IMG/VR virus record: IMGVR_UViG_3300025759_000428
Coordinates: 1 to 30,973 of that record
Origin: a virus
Direction: 5' to 3' (one strand)
Length of the DNA: 30,973 nucleotides
Position numbers and translations under genes: made by a program. The notes beneath the pieces are model-generated. The model worked only from the letters and a program-made list of their open reading frames with translations, was not told the origin of the DNA and made no database searches. Each line of letters begins with the position of its first letter. The stretch's first letter is position 1. Shown piece after piece: positions 6,973 through 29,992 of this stretch.

Positions 6973-6991
6973 TTATTATATTATATTATGG
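6973..6991 (+). promoter_or_regulatory. Leader copy 1 (TTATTATATTATATTATGG), ahead of the scaffold gene
   Basis: This 19-base string includes the ATG of the scaffold-like gene and is identical to bases 9705-9723 in front of the 276-residue gene. It has no Shine-Dalgarno sequence. It may be a translation leader, a late promoter element or a simple A/T repeat; the sequence alone cannot decide. Confidence 0.35.
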
Positions 6992-8184
6992 AAGAAAATA
7001 ATCAGGAACAGCCAGCTGTTGATAACAGCGCGGCTGATTTAAAAGTAAAACCAAAACTATCAGGTCAACAACAAGATGATTACAAGATAGATTTGTCAAA
7101 ACCAATAGAGCCAAAAGAAGAAAAAAATGAAACCACAGAAAAAGTTGAAGAAAACAACCCTGACAACGAGGGAGTGGCTGGAGTCGATGAAAGTGCCGAT
7201 GCCACAGAAAAACAAGAAGAAGTACAACCGGAAAAACAAGCACAAGAAGAAACTCCAGTATTAGAAGAAATTACTGAAGAAGAAGTTCAAGAGCAAACAG
7301 AAGAATTAGCTGAAGAAGTAACTGAAGCTATAGAACAAGCTCAAGAAACTGGTCAAGCAATACCTGAAAATTTACAAAAAGTTGTAGATTTTATGGAAGA
7401 AACTGGTGGTACATTAGAAGATTACGTTCGTCTTAACCAAGATTATTCTAGTTATGACGACATGACAGTATTAAGAGAGTACTATAAACAAACAAAATCT
7501 CACTTAACAGGAGATGAAATTGAATTTTTAATTGAAGAGTCTTTTTCATATGATGAAGATGAAGACGAAGAAAGAGAGATTAAAAGAAAAAAAATAGCGT
7601 TAAAAGAGCAAGTTGCCAACGCTAAAAGCCACCTAGACGGGCAAAAGTCTAAATACTATGAAGAGATTAAAGCTGGTTCAAGATTAACTTCTGAACAACA
7701 AAAAGCTGTAGATTTCTTTAATAGATACAACAAAGAATCTGAGGAAACAAAGAAAATAACAGAAAAACAAACTAACACTTTTAAATTAAAAACACAACAA
7801 GTTTTTAACGATAAATTCAAAGGTTTTGAATACAACGTCGGAGATAAAAAGTATAGGTTTAACGTGAAAAATCCTAACGAGATTAAGACAACACAAAGCG
7901 ATATTAATAATTTTGTCAAGAAGTTCTTGAATGAAAAAAATGAAATGTCAGATGCAAAAGGTTATCACAAATCTTTATTCACAGCGATGAATCCCGATGT
8001 TATTGCTAATCACTTTTACGAGCAAGGCAAGGCAGATGCTTTAAAACAAAGCGTTGCAAAAGCCAAAAACGTTAATATGAACCCAAGGCAGACTCATGGT
8101 GAAAACAAATTACAGAGTGGGCCTAAGTTTAAAATATTAGACACTGTTTCTAAAAATTCTAAGTTAAAATTTAAAAACAAATAA
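6988..8184 (+). CDS. Probable capsid scaffolding protein
   Basis: The 398-residue protein sits exactly between portal and major capsid genes, the usual place of the scaffold. Residues ~1-130 are extremely acidic and low in complexity (EEITEEEVQEQTEELAEEV is typical) and probably disordered or helical. Residues ~130-250 include YDEDEDEEREIKRKKIALK and look helical. The C-terminal third becomes basic (NPDVIANHFYEQGKADALKQ, then a Lys-rich end). An acidic N-terminus with a basic helical C-terminus that binds capsid protein is the common layout of phage scaffolds such as those of P22 and T7 (gp9). No protease motif is visible, so a protease-scaffold fusion is unlikely. The function is inferred from position and composition, not from recognised homology. 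Confidence 0.65.
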   Translation: MEENNQEQPAVDNSAADLKVKPKLSGQQQDDYKIDLSKPIEPKEEKNETTEKVEENNPDNEGVAGVDESADATEKQEEVQPEKQAQEETPVLEEITEEEVQEQTEELAEEVTEAIEQAQETGQAIPENLQKVVDFMEETGGTLEDYVRLNQDYSSYDDMTVLREYYKQTKSHLTGDEIEFLIEESFSYDEDEDEEREIKRKKIALKEQVANAKSHLDGQKSKYYEEIKAGSRLTSEQQKAVDFFNRYNKESEETKKITEKQTNTFKLKTQQVFNDKFKGFEYNVGDKKYRFNVKNPNEIKTTQSDINNFVKKFLNEKNEMSDAKGYHKSLFTAMNPDVIANHFYEQGKADALKQSVAKAKNVNMNPRQTHGENKLQSGPKFKILDTVSKNSKLKFKNK

Positions 8185-22834: not shown

Positions 22835-25800
22835 ATGCCAAGGTACGTACACGCTAACGGTTTTGAGTACAAAAAAGAGGATTTAGAAAAATACGCTGAA
22901 GCCGACGGGTTGTCTTTAGACGATTATATGAGTCAAAACAATATTAGTGTTGACGAGTCTGACGATATTTCTATAATTGAAGGTTTAAAAAACGAAATAT
23001 TAAACACTAAAGGTGAGGCCGCTAAAATAGGTTATGATATATGGACTGCTGCAGCTGAAGGTTTTATAAAACCTGTTTTAGGAGAAGAAGCAGCTTTGTT
23101 TTTTTTAGGCGGTGATGTTAGTGATAAAACTGGCTGGGTAGACCCTGATAACGGGCAAATAGTAGCGTTTGACAAAGCCGCTTATGACAGAGACGGTTAC
23201 GATGCTGTTGAAAATAGAAGGTACTACGAGCTGGCTAAAGAAAACCAAAAATACGGTGTTAGTATACAACAAGTAAACGTTGAAACAGGAGAAGACATTG
23301 GTGTTGCTTACGCTAAAATGCTACAGCAAAGATTTAACGAAGGTAAAGAAATTGAAGAAAGCAGAAGACAAACTGTAGATGTTGGTAGCGAAGGATTTTT
23401 AAACGCTGTGAAATCAGGAGAGTTTGATGATGCTCTTGTTGCTGGTATAGGTTTTATAAAACAGACCGCTATGCACGCTATTGCCGCTAGACTTACGCTT
23501 GGTGGTAGTATGGCTGCAACAATGATAGGTAGTTCTTGGGTCGCTTATAACGAGCAAAAAGCAAAAGCTATTTACGGTGATGATCCAGATGGTTTTTCTA
23601 AACTAGTTGAAAATGACCAAGATGAGTCCGCAATACCAGCTGCTTTAGGAGCTATTGGATATGTTATGGAAAGAGCTGGTTACAAAGGCATGATGAAGGA
23701 ATTAGCTAAAAAATCTTTTACCGGTAAAAAAGCTGTTTCTCTTCTTATGACAGGTAATAAAGAGGGTGTAACAGAATACGGACAAGGCTTGACAGAAAGA
23801 CTTAACGAAAACTTAGGTAAACAAATGAGTTTAGAAGAGTCTGTTAAAGATGTTGGTAGCTACATGTGGACTGAAGAAGCTTGGGACAATTATTTTGCAG
23901 GACTTATTGGTGGTACAGGTATGACTGGTGGTGGAAAAATTGTGCAAGGAGCTTTAAGATCCGACCCTACAAGCAATCAGTTCGTAAACAAAAAAATAAA
24001 CAACATAGCCGGTCTTACAGAAAGCATGGCTAAAGCAACTTCTGAAAAGGAGTTAAAAGATATTCAAGATCAAATTCAAATAGAAGAAACAGATCTTAAA
24101 GATTATTTAGAATCTAATAAAAAGCTTAGTGAATATTTAAATGAAGGTGAAATTACAAGTTTAACTGATCTTGTAAATGAAAGAAGAAACACAAGCGCTG
24201 AAATAGTAAGCTTAAAAAAAGGTTTAAACAAAGGAGCCATATCACAAGCTAGTTTTGACATTCAAGTTAAAGATTTGTTTGAAAGTTTAAACAATATAGA
24301 TGCTAAGGTAAAAAATATTAAAGTTGATGCTAACATGCGTTTGTTAAAAGCTGATTTAGATTCTGGAGATGTTTTTGTAGGTGATGTAAAAGGTTTAGAA
24401 CAAGTTAGATACGAAACTAACGAAGAGTTTTTAAAAGCTTTAGAAAAAGAATATAAACTTCAAGGCATTAAAATGCCTGACATGAAAAAAGTAAGAATTA
24501 ACGGTACAAAAATTGGTAATAAGTTACTAATAAATATGGAAGTTGCTGCAGAGCAAAATGCAGTAGCCACAAGCACGCACGAAGTATTGCACGGTATTGT
24601 TAAGTCTACTTTACAAGCTGATGACGCTAGTGGTAATCTAAGCGCTAAAGGAGAAAACATGGTTAAAATGTTTATTAACCAAATAGGTAGTAGCACTTTA
24701 GCTAAAATAGAAAAAGAACTTGAAAAAGGTGGTTACAAATTAAACGATGACGGCACTGAAAAAGATTTTAAAGAATATGGTGAAGAGTATTTAACTATAT
24801 ATGCACAGCTTTCAAAAGCTGGGGCGTTAAACAAAAATTCTTTACAAAAAGCGGCTAGTTGGTTTACAAACCTTTGGAATAACAATAGTGATTTTAAAGA
24901 AATAGGGTTTGAAACAGGTGAGCAAATACAAAACTTTTTAGATGCTTATGTTCAAGATACTAAGAAAGGTAAGTTCAGACAAGAGTTTAAAGACTTAGCA
25001 GCTTTAGGTGTTAAAATGAAAGGTGGTAAAGTAGATTTTTCTAAAACACAAAAAGACGTTGCAAAGAAAACATTAGACGATATAGGTAAAGCAGAAAACT
25101 TTGATGCTTCTAACAAAGAAATAACAAACCAACTTCCTGCTATGGTAAAAGTACAGGTTGATAACTACTTTAATAATAGACCATCTTTAAAAGCTGATAA
25201 ATCAGTTAGAGAAGAAGTACAAGCTGAAATTTTGTTTAGATTAATAAACCCATCAAAAACAGGTAGAACTGATATAAACGGTTTTAAACCTAAAATAAAT
25301 GATTCTTTATATGGTTATTTAAATAAAAGAATTAACTATAGGATGTTAGATACTTTTAAAGAAAACCCTACTATAGTTCCTGATTTTACAAAAGTAGATC
25401 TTGAAGATGCTGCAAAATTTTTAACAACAGAAGACGCTACTACTACTAAAAAAACAGAAGGTGTAAAAACAAAATTAGTTCAAACAAAAGCTAGACAACT
25501 TACAAGTTTAGCTGATTTAGATATAGAAAACGAAACCGTAATTGTTGATGGTGCTAAAACCACTATATTAAAAGAAGTTGCTAAAAAGCAATTAAATAAA
25601 ATAATTGAAGAAAGTCCTGCAAACACTGTAGAGCAAATAGAACAAACATTAATACCTGATTTAGCAGAATTTATAAGAAAAGAAATGGGTGTTATAGGGC
25701 AAAAAGACGGTAAGTTAAACATACCTGAATCCTACAAGGCTTATTTAGCAAATACTTACGAACAAACAGTCTCTAGTATGGAAATACTTAAAATAAGAAC

Positions 25801-28800
25801 TAATTATAAGAACTTATTTAAAAGAGAAAATATGGGGTTTGCAGATTATAAAACTAAAAAATCTGACAAGCCTAGCCTTAAAAAAGATAGTAACTATAGA
25901 AAAGAAATTTTTAGAAACATAACTACAAAAGCTGAGTTTACAAAGTATCATACAGAAGGAAAAAAGAATAAATTAATAGCTAATCAAAGAAATTTAGCTT
26001 TAATGAGGGCTGAAGCCGAGGCTGTTAGAGCTGCTGAAAATTATATACAAAATAACTCCACAAATCCAGGGCAGCTTTTTAGCTCGTCACTTAGAACTTT
26101 TGTTGATAGCAAAACTGTAGAAAAACAAAAACTTGAAGACAAGAGCTTTGACAGCGTTAAATATTCTAAGGAAATTATTAACACTACTTTTTTAATTTCA
26201 GACGCGTATATGTCTAATAAAAATGTTTTTGATAATAACGGTAAGCTATTACCTCCATACAATGGTTTTTTAAAAGATAAAAAAACTATGCAAAGTATTG
26301 GTGATTTTGTTTGGGCAAACACACCTTTGCTTCAAGGGTACCAAAGTTTTAATCAATTTATAAAACGCGCTTATGATAAACTTGCTGACGCTGGTCAAAG
26401 AGGCACTGATTATGAAAGAAATTTAATTGATGCGGCTATAACTGTTGAAAAAACAATTAACGACCCAAAAATATTTAAAGTTATAAGCAGGGAACCTAAC
26501 GAAAAAGACGCTAATCCAGATGTGGTAGTAGAAATACACGGTGTTCAAATGAACATTGAGGCTAAAATGTTTGATGCTCAATACGGTAGTTTTACACATA
26601 GTGTTGTAAATAAAGATGGAAAACAAATTTTTAATGTTAAAAAAGAATATTCGCCAGAACTAAAGAAAATTTTAAAAGAATTAGAAAAAGAGACTTTAAA
26701 AGGTATTGAAGCTGCTAGAAAGTTTTTGAAATCACCAAAAGATAACAACGGTAATAACAAGCAAGTCATTGAGTGGGACGGTATAAAAATAATACCAACA
26801 GAGGGACATAACCAGCTTCTTTATAATATTAATCCTGAAACTGGAAAAAGTTATTTTAGAGGTATAGGAGCTACAATACCATTTCCTTTAAAATATATTG
26901 CAGAGCTTTATAATCTTAAAAAACACGAGGTGTATTTAATACAGTTAATGGGCAGAGGGCTGTTTAGCATGGGTGGTGATATTTACGGTTTTGGTTTAAC
27001 ATCGTTAGAAAGCGGTGGTGATGGTTTTGTGACTATGCGAGTTAGTTCTAACACTTATAAAACTGCAGCAACGGAAGCTGACGCTAAAAACATGCCAAAT
27101 AAAAGTATGTTTAAAAACGGTAAAAATGGTAAAAAATGGAAAGTACCAAGACCGTTTAAAAAATACGCTTTTAGATCTTTTCCAGGCATAAACAAGCAGG
27201 TATTAGACAAGATGCAATCGCCACAAACAGTTGAAAACATTGCTGGAATACAGAAAATAATTAACGACAAGCGTGTTCAAATGGGATTAGAAGCTATTAA
27301 GTTTTCTAAAACTTTGGTTGAAAAAGCTAATGAATCTGAAGGGTTATACAACGCTATTAATTTTTCAAGAACAATACACAAGCCAAAGGGCATAACTGTT
27401 TTAGATTTTGATGATACGCTGGCTACGACTAAATCTTTAGTTAAATACACAACTCCAGACGGTAAGACAGGCACTTTAAACGCTGAACAATACGCGAGCA
27501 CTTATGAAAGTTTATTAGACAAAGGCTATGAATTTGATTTTTCTGACTTTAATAAAGTTGTAAAAGGTAAATTAGCGCCGTTGTTTAACAAAGCTATAAA
27601 ACTTCAAGGTAAGTTTGGGCCAGAAAATATGTTTGTATTAACAGCTAGGCCACCAGAATCCGCTCAAGCTATATTTGACTTTTTAAAGGCCAATGGTTTA
27701 AATATACCTTTAAAAAATATAACTGGATTAGCTAATTCTACATCTGAAGCAAAAGCATTATGGATAGCTGGTAAAGTTGGCGAGGGTTATAATGATTTTT
27801 ATTTTGCTGATGATGCGTTGCAAAACGTACAAGCGGTTAAAAACATGTTAGATCAATTTGATGTTAAATCAAAAGTGCAACAAGCTAAAGTTAAGTTTAG
27901 CAAAACACTAAGTGATGATTTTAATGACATATTACAAGATGTAACTGGTATAGAGTCTGGAAAAAGGTTTAGCACTATGAAAGCTAGAAAGCGTGGCGCT
28001 AGCAAAGGTAAGTTTAGATTTTTTATACCACCGTCACACGAGGACTTTATAGGCTTATTATACAACTTTATGGGTAAAGGTAGAAAAGGAGACGTTCATA
28101 GAGATTTTTTTGAAAAAGCTTTAGTTAGACCTTTAAATAGGGCTTATAGAGAAATAGACACTGCCAAACAAGCTATTGCAAACGATTACAAAGCGCTAGG
28201 TAAACAAATGCCTGACGTTAGAAAAATGTTAACTAAAAAAACACCTGACGGAGATTATACGTATCAAGATGCTATAAGAGTATACTTATGGGACAAACAC
28301 GGTTATTCAATACCAGGTTTAAGCGAGGCTGATCAAAAAAGTTTAGTTGATATAGTAAAGCAAGACCCTAACTTACAGGCTTACGCTGAAAGTATAAACG
28401 CTATATCTAAACAAGAAAACTATGTAGACCCAGGTCCTAACTGGGAAACTGGTAATATAAGAATAGACTTAATAGATGCAACTGGTAGAGTTGGTAGAGC
28501 TAAGTACTTTGCAGAGTTTCAGGAAAACGCTGACACAATATTTAGTGAAGAAAATTTAAATAAAATTGAGGCCGCTTACGGTAAAAGCGTTAGAGAAGCT
28601 TTAGAAGACATGTTGTATCGAATAAAAATTGGTGTTAACAGGTCTAAAGGAGCTAACGCAAAACCAAATATGTTTATGAATTGGTTGAACGCTTCTGTTT
28701 CAGGTGTAATGTTTTTTAACACTAGATCTGCATTGCTACAGCAAATGTCAAACGTAAACTATTTAAATTTTGCTGACAACAATATACTTGCTGCTGGTAA

Positions 28801-29992
28801 AGCTTTCGCCAACCAACCGCAATACTGGAAAGACTTTGCGATGATATTTAACTCTGATATGCTAAAGCAAAGGCGTGGTGGTTTACAAACAGACATTAAT
28901 GGTGCTGAGCTTGCTGAAGCTATCAAAAGCGCTAGACCAGGAAGCTTATTTGATCAAATAGCTATAATTGTTGGTAAAGCTCTTAAATTAGGATTTTTAC
29001 CTACTCAAATTGGTGATAACATTGCGATCGCTACAGGTGGCGCTGCTTTTTATAGAAACAGAGTTAATAAATATATTAGAGAAGGTTTTCCTGTAGACCA
29101 AGCTGAAAAAAAAGCTTTTACTGATTTTCAAAACATCACACAATCAACTCAGCAGTCTGCTAGACCAGACATGACTTCTTACCAGCAAGCTATATGGGTA
29201 GGAAAATTAGTGTTAAACTTTTTAAACACGCCATCGCAATATAACAGAATAATTAAAAAAGCAGGTCTTGATCTTTTAAACAGAAGAATAACACCACCTA
29301 ACACCACGCAAACACAGAGCGATATGTCTAACATGTCTAGAATATTGTACTACGGCGCTGCACAAAACTTAATATTTTACAGTCTACAAACCGCGTTATT
29401 TGCAGTAATGTTTGGAAGCGAAGACGAAGACGAAGATGAAAAAGCTGAGCAGTTTTTAAAGAAAAAAGAAAGAGTTATAAACGGAACAATAGACACTATA
29501 CTAAGAGGTTCTGGTATATACGGAGTTGCAGTTTCTACTTTAAAAAACATGGCTATTAAGTTTATGGAACAAAGAGAAGCTGGTTACAACAAAGACGAAA
29601 GCGCTGTTATTATGGAGCTATTAAACTTTTCACCTGTTGTGGGTATTAAAGCTAGAAGAATTGTTAACGCAGAAAAAACTTTAAATTATAATAAAAAAGT
29701 AATTGAAGAAATGGAAACGTTTGACATAGACAACCCTGTGTGGTCTGCTGTTACAAATTATACCCAAACTATTACTACAGCACCAACAAATAAAATTTAC
29801 CAAAAAACAATAAATCTTAGAAACGCTGCTGATAGAGATTATACAGCTTTACAAAGATTGTTGTTTTTATCTGGTTATACTACTTGGAGTTTAGGTCTTG
29901 GTGATACTAAAAAAATGAAAAAAATAAAAGAAGAAGTAAAAGCTAAAAACAAAAAGAAAAGAAAAAGAAAATCTAAGTCTGTAGGTTTTTAA
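22835..29992 (+). CDS. Giant polyvalent internal virion protein: zincin, PD-(D/E)XK nuclease, HAD phosphatase
   Basis: At 2385 residues this is the largest gene and sits in the gp16 position. Layout: residues 1-400 with an N-terminal YVHANGFEYKKEDLEKYA block and glycine-rich hydrophobic segments (~205-240, ~350-370); ~400-720 a helical part plus a zincin with H582-E-V-L-H586-G and possible third ligand E647/E650/E651; ~740-1100 a helical region including GYLNKRINYRMLDTFKEN; ~1115-1480 a PD-(D/E)XK nuclease (E1194, P1228-D1229, E1242-A-K1244); ~1515-1685 a HAD domain (D1524-F-D1526-D-T, T1603, K1640, D1659-D1660); ~1690-2385 a helical module with SVSGVMFFNTRSALLQQM, FLPTQIGDNIAIATGGAAFY, a membrane-like segment (~2172-2196) and a Lys/Arg-rich end. 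The peptide [VI]x[FY]S[KR][TE] recurs at the domain junctions. 'Large polyvalent proteins' of phages (Iyer, Aravind and colleagues) are the nearest described concept. No transglycosylase motif is seen. Confidence 0.75.
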   Translation: MPRYVHANGFEYKKEDLEKYAEADGLSLDDYMSQNNISVDESDDISIIEGLKNEILNTKGEAAKIGYDIWTAAAEGFIKPVLGEEAALFFLGGDVSDKTGWVDPDNGQIVAFDKAAYDRDGYDAVENRRYYELAKENQKYGVSIQQVNVETGEDIGVAYAKMLQQRFNEGKEIEESRRQTVDVGSEGFLNAVKSGEFDDALVAGIGFIKQTAMHAIAARLTLGGSMAATMIGSSWVAYNEQKAKAIYGDDPDGFSKLVENDQDESAIPAALGAIGYVMERAGYKGMMKELAKKSFTGKKAVSLLMTGNKEGVTEYGQGLTERLNENLGKQMSLEESVKDVGSYMWTEEAWDNYFAGLIGGTGMTGGGKIVQGALRSDPTSNQFVNKKINNIAGLTESMAKATSEKELKDIQDQIQIEETDLKDYLESNKKLSEYLNEGEITSLTDLVNERRNTSAEIVSLKKGLNKGAISQASFDIQVKDLFESLNNIDAKVKNIKVDANMRLLKADLDSGDVFVGDVKGLEQVRYETNEEFLKALEKEYKLQGIKMPDMKKVRINGTKIGNKLLINMEVAAEQNAVATSTHEVLHGIVKSTLQADDASGNLSAKGENMVKMFINQIGSSTLAKIEKELEKGGYKLNDDGTEKDFKEYGEEYLTIYAQLSKAGALNKNSLQKAASWFTNLWNNNSDFKEIGFETGEQIQNFLDAYVQDTKKGKFRQEFKDLAALGVKMKGGKVDFSKTQKDVAKKTLDDIGKAENFDASNKEITNQLPAMVKVQVDNYFNNRPSLKADKSVREEVQAEILFRLINPSKTGRTDINGFKPKINDSLYGYLNKRINYRMLDTFKENPTIVPDFTKVDLEDAAKFLTTEDATTTKKTEGVKTKLVQTKARQLTSLADLDIENETVIVDGAKTTILKEVAKKQLNKIIEESPANTVEQIEQTLIPDLAEFIRKEMGVIGQKDGKLNIPESYKAYLANTYEQTVSSMEILKIRTNYKNLFKRENMGFADYKTKKSDKPSLKKDSNYRKEIFRNITTKAEFTKYHTEGKKNKLIANQRNLALMRAEAEAVRAAENYIQNNSTNPGQLFSSSLRTFVDSKTVEKQKLEDKSFDSVKYSKEIINTTFLISDAYMSNKNVFDNNGKLLPPYNGFLKDKKTMQSIGDFVWANTPLLQGYQSFNQFIKRAYDKLADAGQRGTDYERNLIDAAITVEKTINDPKIFKVISREPNEKDANPDVVVEIHGVQMNIEAKMFDAQYGSFTHSVVNKDGKQIFNVKKEYSPELKKILKELEKETLKGIEAARKFLKSPKDNNGNNKQVIEWDGIKIIPTEGHNQLLYNINPETGKSYFRGIGATIPFPLKYIAELYNLKKHEVYLIQLMGRGLFSMGGDIYGFGLTSLESGGDGFVTMRVSSNTYKTAATEADAKNMPNKSMFKNGKNGKKWKVPRPFKKYAFRSFPGINKQVLDKMQSPQTVENIAGIQKIINDKRVQMGLEAIKFSKTLVEKANESEGLYNAINFSRTIHKPKGITVLDFDDTLATTKSLVKYTTPDGKTGTLNAEQYASTYESLLDKGYEFDFSDFNKVVKGKLAPLFNKAIKLQGKFGPENMFVLTARPPESAQAIFDFLKANGLNIPLKNITGLANSTSEAKALWIAGKVGEGYNDFYFADDALQNVQAVKNMLDQFDVKSKVQQAKVKFSKTLSDDFNDILQDVTGIESGKRFSTMKARKRGASKGKFRFFIPPSHEDFIGLLYNFMGKGRKGDVHRDFFEKALVRPLNRAYREIDTAKQAIANDYKALGKQMPDVRKMLTKKTPDGDYTYQDAIRVYLWDKHGYSIPGLSEADQKSLVDIVKQDPNLQAYAESINAISKQENYVDPGPNWETGNIRIDLIDATGRVGRAKYFAEFQENADTIFSEENLNKIEAAYGKSVREALEDMLYRIKIGVNRSKGANAKPNMFMNWLNASVSGVMFFNTRSALLQQMSNVNYLNFADNNILAAGKAFANQPQYWKDFAMIFNSDMLKQRRGGLQTDINGAELAEAIKSARPGSLFDQIAIIVGKALKLGFLPTQIGDNIAIATGGAAFYRNRVNKYIREGFPVDQAEKKAFTDFQNITQSTQQSARPDMTSYQQAIWVGKLVLNFLNTPSQYNRIIKKAGLDLLNRRITPPNTTQTQSDMSNMSRILYYGAAQNLIFYSLQTALFAVMFGSEDEDEDEKAEQFLKKKERVINGTIDTILRGSGIYGVAVSTLKNMAIKFMEQREAGYNKDESAVIMELLNFSPVVGIKARRIVNAEKTLNYNKKVIEEMETFDIDNPVWSAVTNYTQTITTAPTNKIYQKTINLRNAADRDYTALQRLLFLSGYTTWSLGLGDTKKMKKIKEEVKAKNKKKRKRKSKSVGF

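Follow-up and report, generated by a model that had tools for sequence, protein, structure and literature searches.

A recurrent peptide at the module junctions of a giant crAss-like phage protein: possible cut sites for its own zincin

The closest described counterparts of the protein considered here are the polyvalent proteins treated by Iyer et al. 2017 (PMC5512222, consulted in part), whose zincins are predicted there to release domains by autoproteolysis. Two zincin-bearing, virion-carried examples in that text are P1 DdrB, reported as cut before packaging, and N4 virion RNA polymerase; another P1 protein, DarA, is processed by the prohead protease Pro (PMC12810830, also consulted in part). 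We examined a giant multidomain protein of 2,385 amino acids (aa), encoded on the + strand at 22835..29992 of virus record IMGVR_UViG_3300025759_000428 (IMG/VR; 30,973 nucleotides, this whole stretch being called the window). The giant is polyvalent-protein-like in sequence and gene-order position. Like the proteins of Iyer et al., it is a very long chain with a zincin as hub and several enzymatic modules, and its modules are exchanged; to DdrB and the N4 polymerase it is likened by description only, as a zincin-bearing and, on our proposal, virion-carried chain. It differs in a recurrent peptide at the links between its modules, which was not found in the consulted part of PMC5512222, and in having no LPD or other curated domain at the Pfam cut-off, where it gave a sub-threshold match only. 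No description of such a link peptide was found in the literature searched, and a search with the motif string returned only unrelated work.

A peptide that recurs at junctions, almost only on one side of a built-in protease, suggests sites at which the chain may be cleaved into functional parts. We put at about even the chance that the peptides are cut-site signatures for the protein's own zincin, freeing the modules of a virion-carried polyvalent protein. Splitting by a resident zincin was predicted in 2017, and no cut site was found proposed in the part of Iyer et al. (PMC5512222) consulted. A peptide restricted to one flank of the zincin, and retained where modules have been exchanged, narrows the bond to be tested to a definite region and could serve to delimit modules in many phage giants that lack annotation.

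The link peptide in the window and in related giants

The earlier note on this DNA had listed five copies of [VI]x[FY]S[KR][TE] in the giant, and all five are present exactly at the residues it gave, all on the + strand. VDFSKT (aa 733-738, 25031..25048) comes shortly after the zincin profile; VKYSKE (aa 1108-1113, 26156..26173) lies after a middle module, M1, and before a nuclease-like module, which is followed by IKFSKT (aa 1488-1493, 27296..27313). INFSRT (aa 1508-1513, 27356..27373) comes 20 aa after the third and before a HAD module, and VKFSKT (aa 1686-1691, 27890..27907) stands between HAD and the conserved C-terminal module (C-module), with homologous junctions in relatives. The placement of domains around the peptides claimed in that note agrees with profiles built from homologues, all five peptides falling between the matches to the zincin, M1, nuclease-like, HAD and C-module profiles. 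Its judgement that such even bracketing is unlikely by chance was borne out as well: composition shuffles of the giant gave a mean of 0.024 strict matches and a maximum of two, and none of 20,000 reached five. Among the 17 translated open reading frames (ORFs) the strict pattern is confined to the giant. In an AlphaFold2 model, four of the five peptides have a predicted local distance difference test score (pLDDT) of about 52 or below, and the one at aa 1508 lies at a helix end with about 68-75.

Relatives were drawn from 22 loci found with the whole protein and 80 found with its C-module (80 kept of 594 matched relatives), which with the window, and after removal of 4 of 103 giants as repeats, gave 99 distinct giants. 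For counts by side of the zincin, 7 of the 99 were left out for want of a 5' end and 5 of the remaining 92 for want of HExxH. For a second set, 60 giants were gathered with a more distant C-module as query (80 kept of 519 matched relatives) and from other scans; 53 of the 60 were used, so that 87 and 53 giants make up 140 with intact HExxH. The pattern counted in homologues is the core [VIL]x[FY]S[KR]; an earlier count by side omitted matches before aa 60 and inside the N2 and HAD modules, which are included here.

Between the zincin and the C-module of the 140 giants the core peptide was observed 205 times against about 23 expected, and N-terminal of the zincin 9 times against about 13. Both sets follow this pattern. 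In the first, there were 132 matches between HExxH and the C-module (14.2 expected), 8 N-terminal of HExxH (8.6 expected) and 16 inside the C-module (8.6 expected), the last mostly from one homologous internal site at about +206; the new giants of the second set gave 73 (9.5 expected), 1 (5.1 expected) and 6 (4.8 expected), respectively. Across the 140, patterns with swapped or substituted residues were enriched at most 2.8-fold, compared with 8.9-fold for the true pattern ([VIL]x[FY]S[DE] 1.3-fold; [VIL]x[FY][KR]S 0.4-fold). FSK is, together with FDF, the most over-represented tripeptide once repeated contexts are removed; FDF is, in our view, a piece of the conserved HAD-module sequence. Other ORFs of at least 250 aa in the same loci held 17 core peptides against 11 expected. 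Chance or composition as the origin of the peptide is ruled out by the shuffles, the homologue counts and the altered-pattern controls.

At 146 [VI] sites, serine is encoded about half by AGY and half by TCN, and phenylalanine by TTT at 0.90, against 0.91 in the background. Because codon use is ordinary and serine comes from both codon sets, it is the peptide that is conserved and not the DNA, and a DNA-level recombination site is thereby ruled out.

Two minor features of the peptide may be recorded here. Tandem pairs about 15, 20 or 27 aa apart occur in the window (aa 1488 and 1508) and at loci L007, L027, L072, L051, L067 and L074. The site at about +206 of the C-module (for example in L037, L040 and L075) reads IIFSKE, which fits the pattern inside a conserved domain, and the window has FSEE there.

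Module exchange and the side of the zincin

While modules are swapped around it, the peptide keeps its place at the junctions, as the homologue check proposed in the earlier note anticipated. The 132 sites show 35 upstream and 31 downstream contexts in 51 combinations, and fall into 15 groups when sites sharing any flank are joined. Seventeen different upstream contexts precede HAD (36 sites), and five different downstream contexts follow M1 (11 sites). The part of the window giant that matches L005 and L008 starts at aa 1494; the corresponding starts are aa 1516 for L004 and aa 1680 for L020, which has no HAD profile match and still keeps LKFSRN before the C-module. In L099 about 470 extra aa lie between HAD and the C-module, bounded by IQFSRG and IQFSKK on one side and by IQFSKD on the other. 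The break points of similarity give a mixed picture: of 166 bins with an end of similarity, 33 lay within 10 aa of a peptide where 4.4 were expected, and of 1,243 bins with a start, 49 did so where 30.3 were expected and the highest of 1,000 draws was 51. On our reading of the profile matches, the peptide is not equally common inside domains upstream of the C-module: with profiles made from the window, the 99 giants have none inside the zincin, M1 and nuclease profiles, two in HAD (L009 and L018, at the same place) and one in N2 (L024).

The zincin itself varies in a few giants. In four (L038, L053, L056 and L077) a stretch that is zincin-like in other respects reads HHDxxH, L021 has HExxxH, and L242 is one further HDxxH giant with the same HDGLH as L053. 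Replacement of the catalytic glutamate by aspartate usually weakens zincins. The peptide is found downstream of the zincin in none of the five HDxxH giants (L038, L053, L056, L077 and L242), versus 101 of the 140 HExxH giants (Fisher 0.002, uncorrected for relatedness). We also considered the zincin clade as a predictor of the peptide, and it is a weak one: in FastTree trees of 145 rows, the zincin tree shows 28 changes in peptide presence and the C-module tree 31, with shuffled means of about 38. An earlier 92-row set, scored at the C-module junction, gave 21 and 20 changes.

Cutting, docking or linkage

Going by gene position and the annotation of relatives, the giant would be carried in the virion as a polyvalent protein, and its zincin would cut, or license the cutting of, the chain at [VI]x[FY]S[KR]-(S/T/D/N) in the flexible links C-terminal of the zincin. 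This would release the nuclease, HAD and other modules from each other and from the helical C-module. With a portable peptide at the links as the proposed signature, one module could be replaced by another and still be set free. We infer the proteolysis, the zincin as its enzyme, the exact bond and the timing, which may be head assembly, ejection or after entry. The earlier note had left the choice between release by a host, virion or resident protease and a docking linker; the one-sided distribution of the peptide and its absence in the five HDxxH giants favour the resident zincin, and docking stays a rival.

Several observations weigh against zincin cutting. The HDxxH cases amount to only 2-4 events, and the 3-4 independent pairs, which go in the expected direction or are tied for the junction peptide, could none of them reach 0.05. 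Much of the junction count is inheritance, 49 sites having one upstream context in common; many of the points where similarity ends come from two proteins, L071 and L099; and starts of similarity upstream of HAD avoid the peptide, with 1 of 473 bins lying no more than 10 aa away where 6.6 were expected. The expectation that homologues with like domains carry the motif at every junction failed, since 39 of the 140 HExxH giants have no K/R-form peptide downstream of the zincin, and close relatives have only FSN, FSE or FSQ at the HAD/C-module link. HExxH without the peptide is also found in the named relatives MW202828, elemoA, Gundel_1 and crAss001 gp47. Quite different zincins (HELQH, HEVGH) accompany the same peptide, and N4 virion RNA polymerase is packaged uncut according to the consulted part of Iyer et al. 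(PMC5512222).

That very different zincins share the peptide would suit a docking role, in which the link peptide binds a partner (the C-module, portal, scaffold, a chaperone or a virion RNA polymerase) for packing or threading of the chain, which would stay uncut. A short hydrophobic-aromatic-serine-basic peptide in flexible links suits binding as well as cutting, and its absence N-terminal of the zincin could mark a separate structural half. Docking, however, does not explain why the zincin forms a boundary or why the peptide is missing beside HDxxH zincins, and a chain may have anything from no peptide to six ahead of its C-module; we consider docking rather unlikely. Slightly more doubtful in our view is a structural or neutral linker, a strand or turn that caps the end of a module, is inherited with it and spread by recombination, and has no separate function. 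The points at which similarity ends often lie 0-15 aa after the peptide start, as if the peptide were the tail of the upstream module, and D[VI]R[FY]S, too, stands mostly at the end of a single domain type in polyvalent-like proteins that are unrelated. Yet the peptide follows 35 different upstream contexts, the AlphaFold2 model has low confidence at four of the five sites, and a plain linker needs no fixed order of serine and then lysine or arginine.

The processing of P1 DarA by Pro gives a precedent for cutting of the peptide during head maturation by a separate phage or host protease. We hold this to be improbable: 11 related contigs of 57-71 kb yielded no protease of the S78 or Clp type, the other ORFs of the loci are hardly enriched (the 17 versus 11 above), and restriction to the C-terminal side of the zincin is left unexplained. 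Cut sites for an onboard zincin would account better than a docking peptide or an inert linker for the one-sided distribution, the location at junctions and the HDxxH cases.

Cutting by an onboard zincin could extend to a portable release code, by which phages with giant multi-enzyme proteins mark exchangeable junctions downstream of the zincin with [VI]x[FY]S, so that any plugged-in module would be cut free, with D[VI]R[FY]S as a possible sister form in unrelated polyvalent-like proteins. We think so general a code unlikely, and the D[VI]R[FY]S proteins are a lead only. Loci L120-L199 were found with a module peptide, and 79 of the 80 hold polyvalent-like ORFs of another kind. After removal of repeats, 72 such proteins have 12 copies of D[VI]R[FY]S (0.1 expected), mostly after one domain type, and 14 of [VIL]x[FY]S[KR] (11.6 expected). 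The form [VI][RK][FY]S occurs in polyvalent-like proteins of this kind at 19 sites with 7 upstream contexts, 12 of the sites being in one context; in 33 of the ORFs it was counted 11 times after HExxH (2.8 expected) and never before it (1.3 expected). The domain that D[VI]R[FY]S follows in the L120-L199 proteins ends in GNVIPLSxRF.

Domain layout, gene order and placement of the phage

Domain borders were taken from family profiles built on window segments and homologues. The zincin-like metallopeptidase region covers aa 562-722 (24518..25000, +), with HEVLH at aa 582-586 (24578-24592), and its profile is matched in 68 of the 99 giants; HExxH lies upstream of the C-module in 87 of the 92 giants having a 5' end. 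In the 51 aligned rows, a subset of the giants, that were used for structure prediction, HExxH and a later glutamate (E122 of the first row) are invariant. M1, with no function assigned, spans aa 873-1101 (25451..26137, +; profile in 18 of 99 giants). The PD-(D/E)xK nuclease-like module (aa 1121-1480; 26195..27274, +; profile in 4 of 99) is proposed from NPDVVV...NIEAK, where strands are predicted, and had no Pfam match. The HAD-fold phosphatase-like module with DFDDTL (aa 1518-1684; 27386..27886, +) is matched in 96 of 99, and the C-module (aa 1695-2375; 27917..29959, +) in 99 of 99 by construction of the set; its predicted model is all-helical with low confidence (mean pLDDT 59).

The AlphaFold2 model covers aa 530-1720 (1,191 aa) with a mean pLDDT of 66 and a predicted template modelling score of 0.32. 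Foldseek returned nothing below E 0.001 for this 1,191-aa model and no solved structure for the zincin-like region; HAD alone was recognisable, through weak matches to HAD phosphatases (best E 0.05, probability 0.99). The chain holds at least two disparate enzymatic domains, namely the zincin (from sequence and conserved HExxH), HAD (from the weak fold match) and the nuclease-like module (from a motif in the sequence only), and module exchange is seen between its relatives. Pfam searches of 17 of the 99 homologues found eight families, none of them LPD, ART, PBECR or MuF. Because no curated polyvalent-associated domain was matched, we say that the giant probably works like a polyvalent protein and do not class it as a curated member. 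The HAD matches are split in some relatives: in L099 (149-12280) an AAA_33 or Zeta-type kinase at aa 2476-2608 lies between two HAD-match parts, as in the polynucleotide kinase-phosphatase arrangement, and split matches also occur in L017, L042, L048 and L097.

The window belongs to the head-tail gene cluster of a crAss-like phage, in the order GroES-like, TerL, portal, structural genes, muzzle, smaller genes and then the giant. It has the head/tail gene module of Crassvirales and near relatives (the PHROG matches for TerL, portal and structural genes have strong E-values) and matches the crAss muzzle C-terminal domain PF25729 at E 2.7e-12. TerL is 64% identical to that of MW202828, 46% to Elemovirus and 32-38% to phages of Pervagoviridae and Pachyviridae. 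The giant had no match at E 1e-3 in 50,697 named phage records, and a genome-collection search for the host gave seven matches, all to contigs in metagenome-assembled genomes of unrelated taxa and none usable for host inference.

Gene order is the same as in Flavobacterium phage elemoA and Cellulophaga phage phi38:1, where the equivalent gene is an annotated structural protein (directly in elemoA; in phi38:1 by similarity to phi18:1). Like the giant, elemoA gp21 (3,694 aa), phi38:1 gp101 and the giant of MW202828 (3,859 aa) follow the muzzle and small structural genes, but these proteins do not match the window giant at E 1e-3 and have no FSK/FSR link peptide. The MW202828 giant (L106, 741-12320), in the equivalent position, has two HExxH and is annotated as a reticulocyte binding/rhoptry protein, probably a misnomer. 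The cargo proteins of crAss001 (gp45-gp47, gp49 and gp50) are encoded near the muzzle gene and were found in virions by mass spectrometry, according to the consulted part of PMC10172136; they have no recurring link peptide, and gp49 has one isolated IKFSRK. Between the portal and capsid-type genes, the window also has a 398-aa ORF (6988-8184), possibly a scaffold, that matched no family above the cut-off and contains GAA-rich 24-base repeats.

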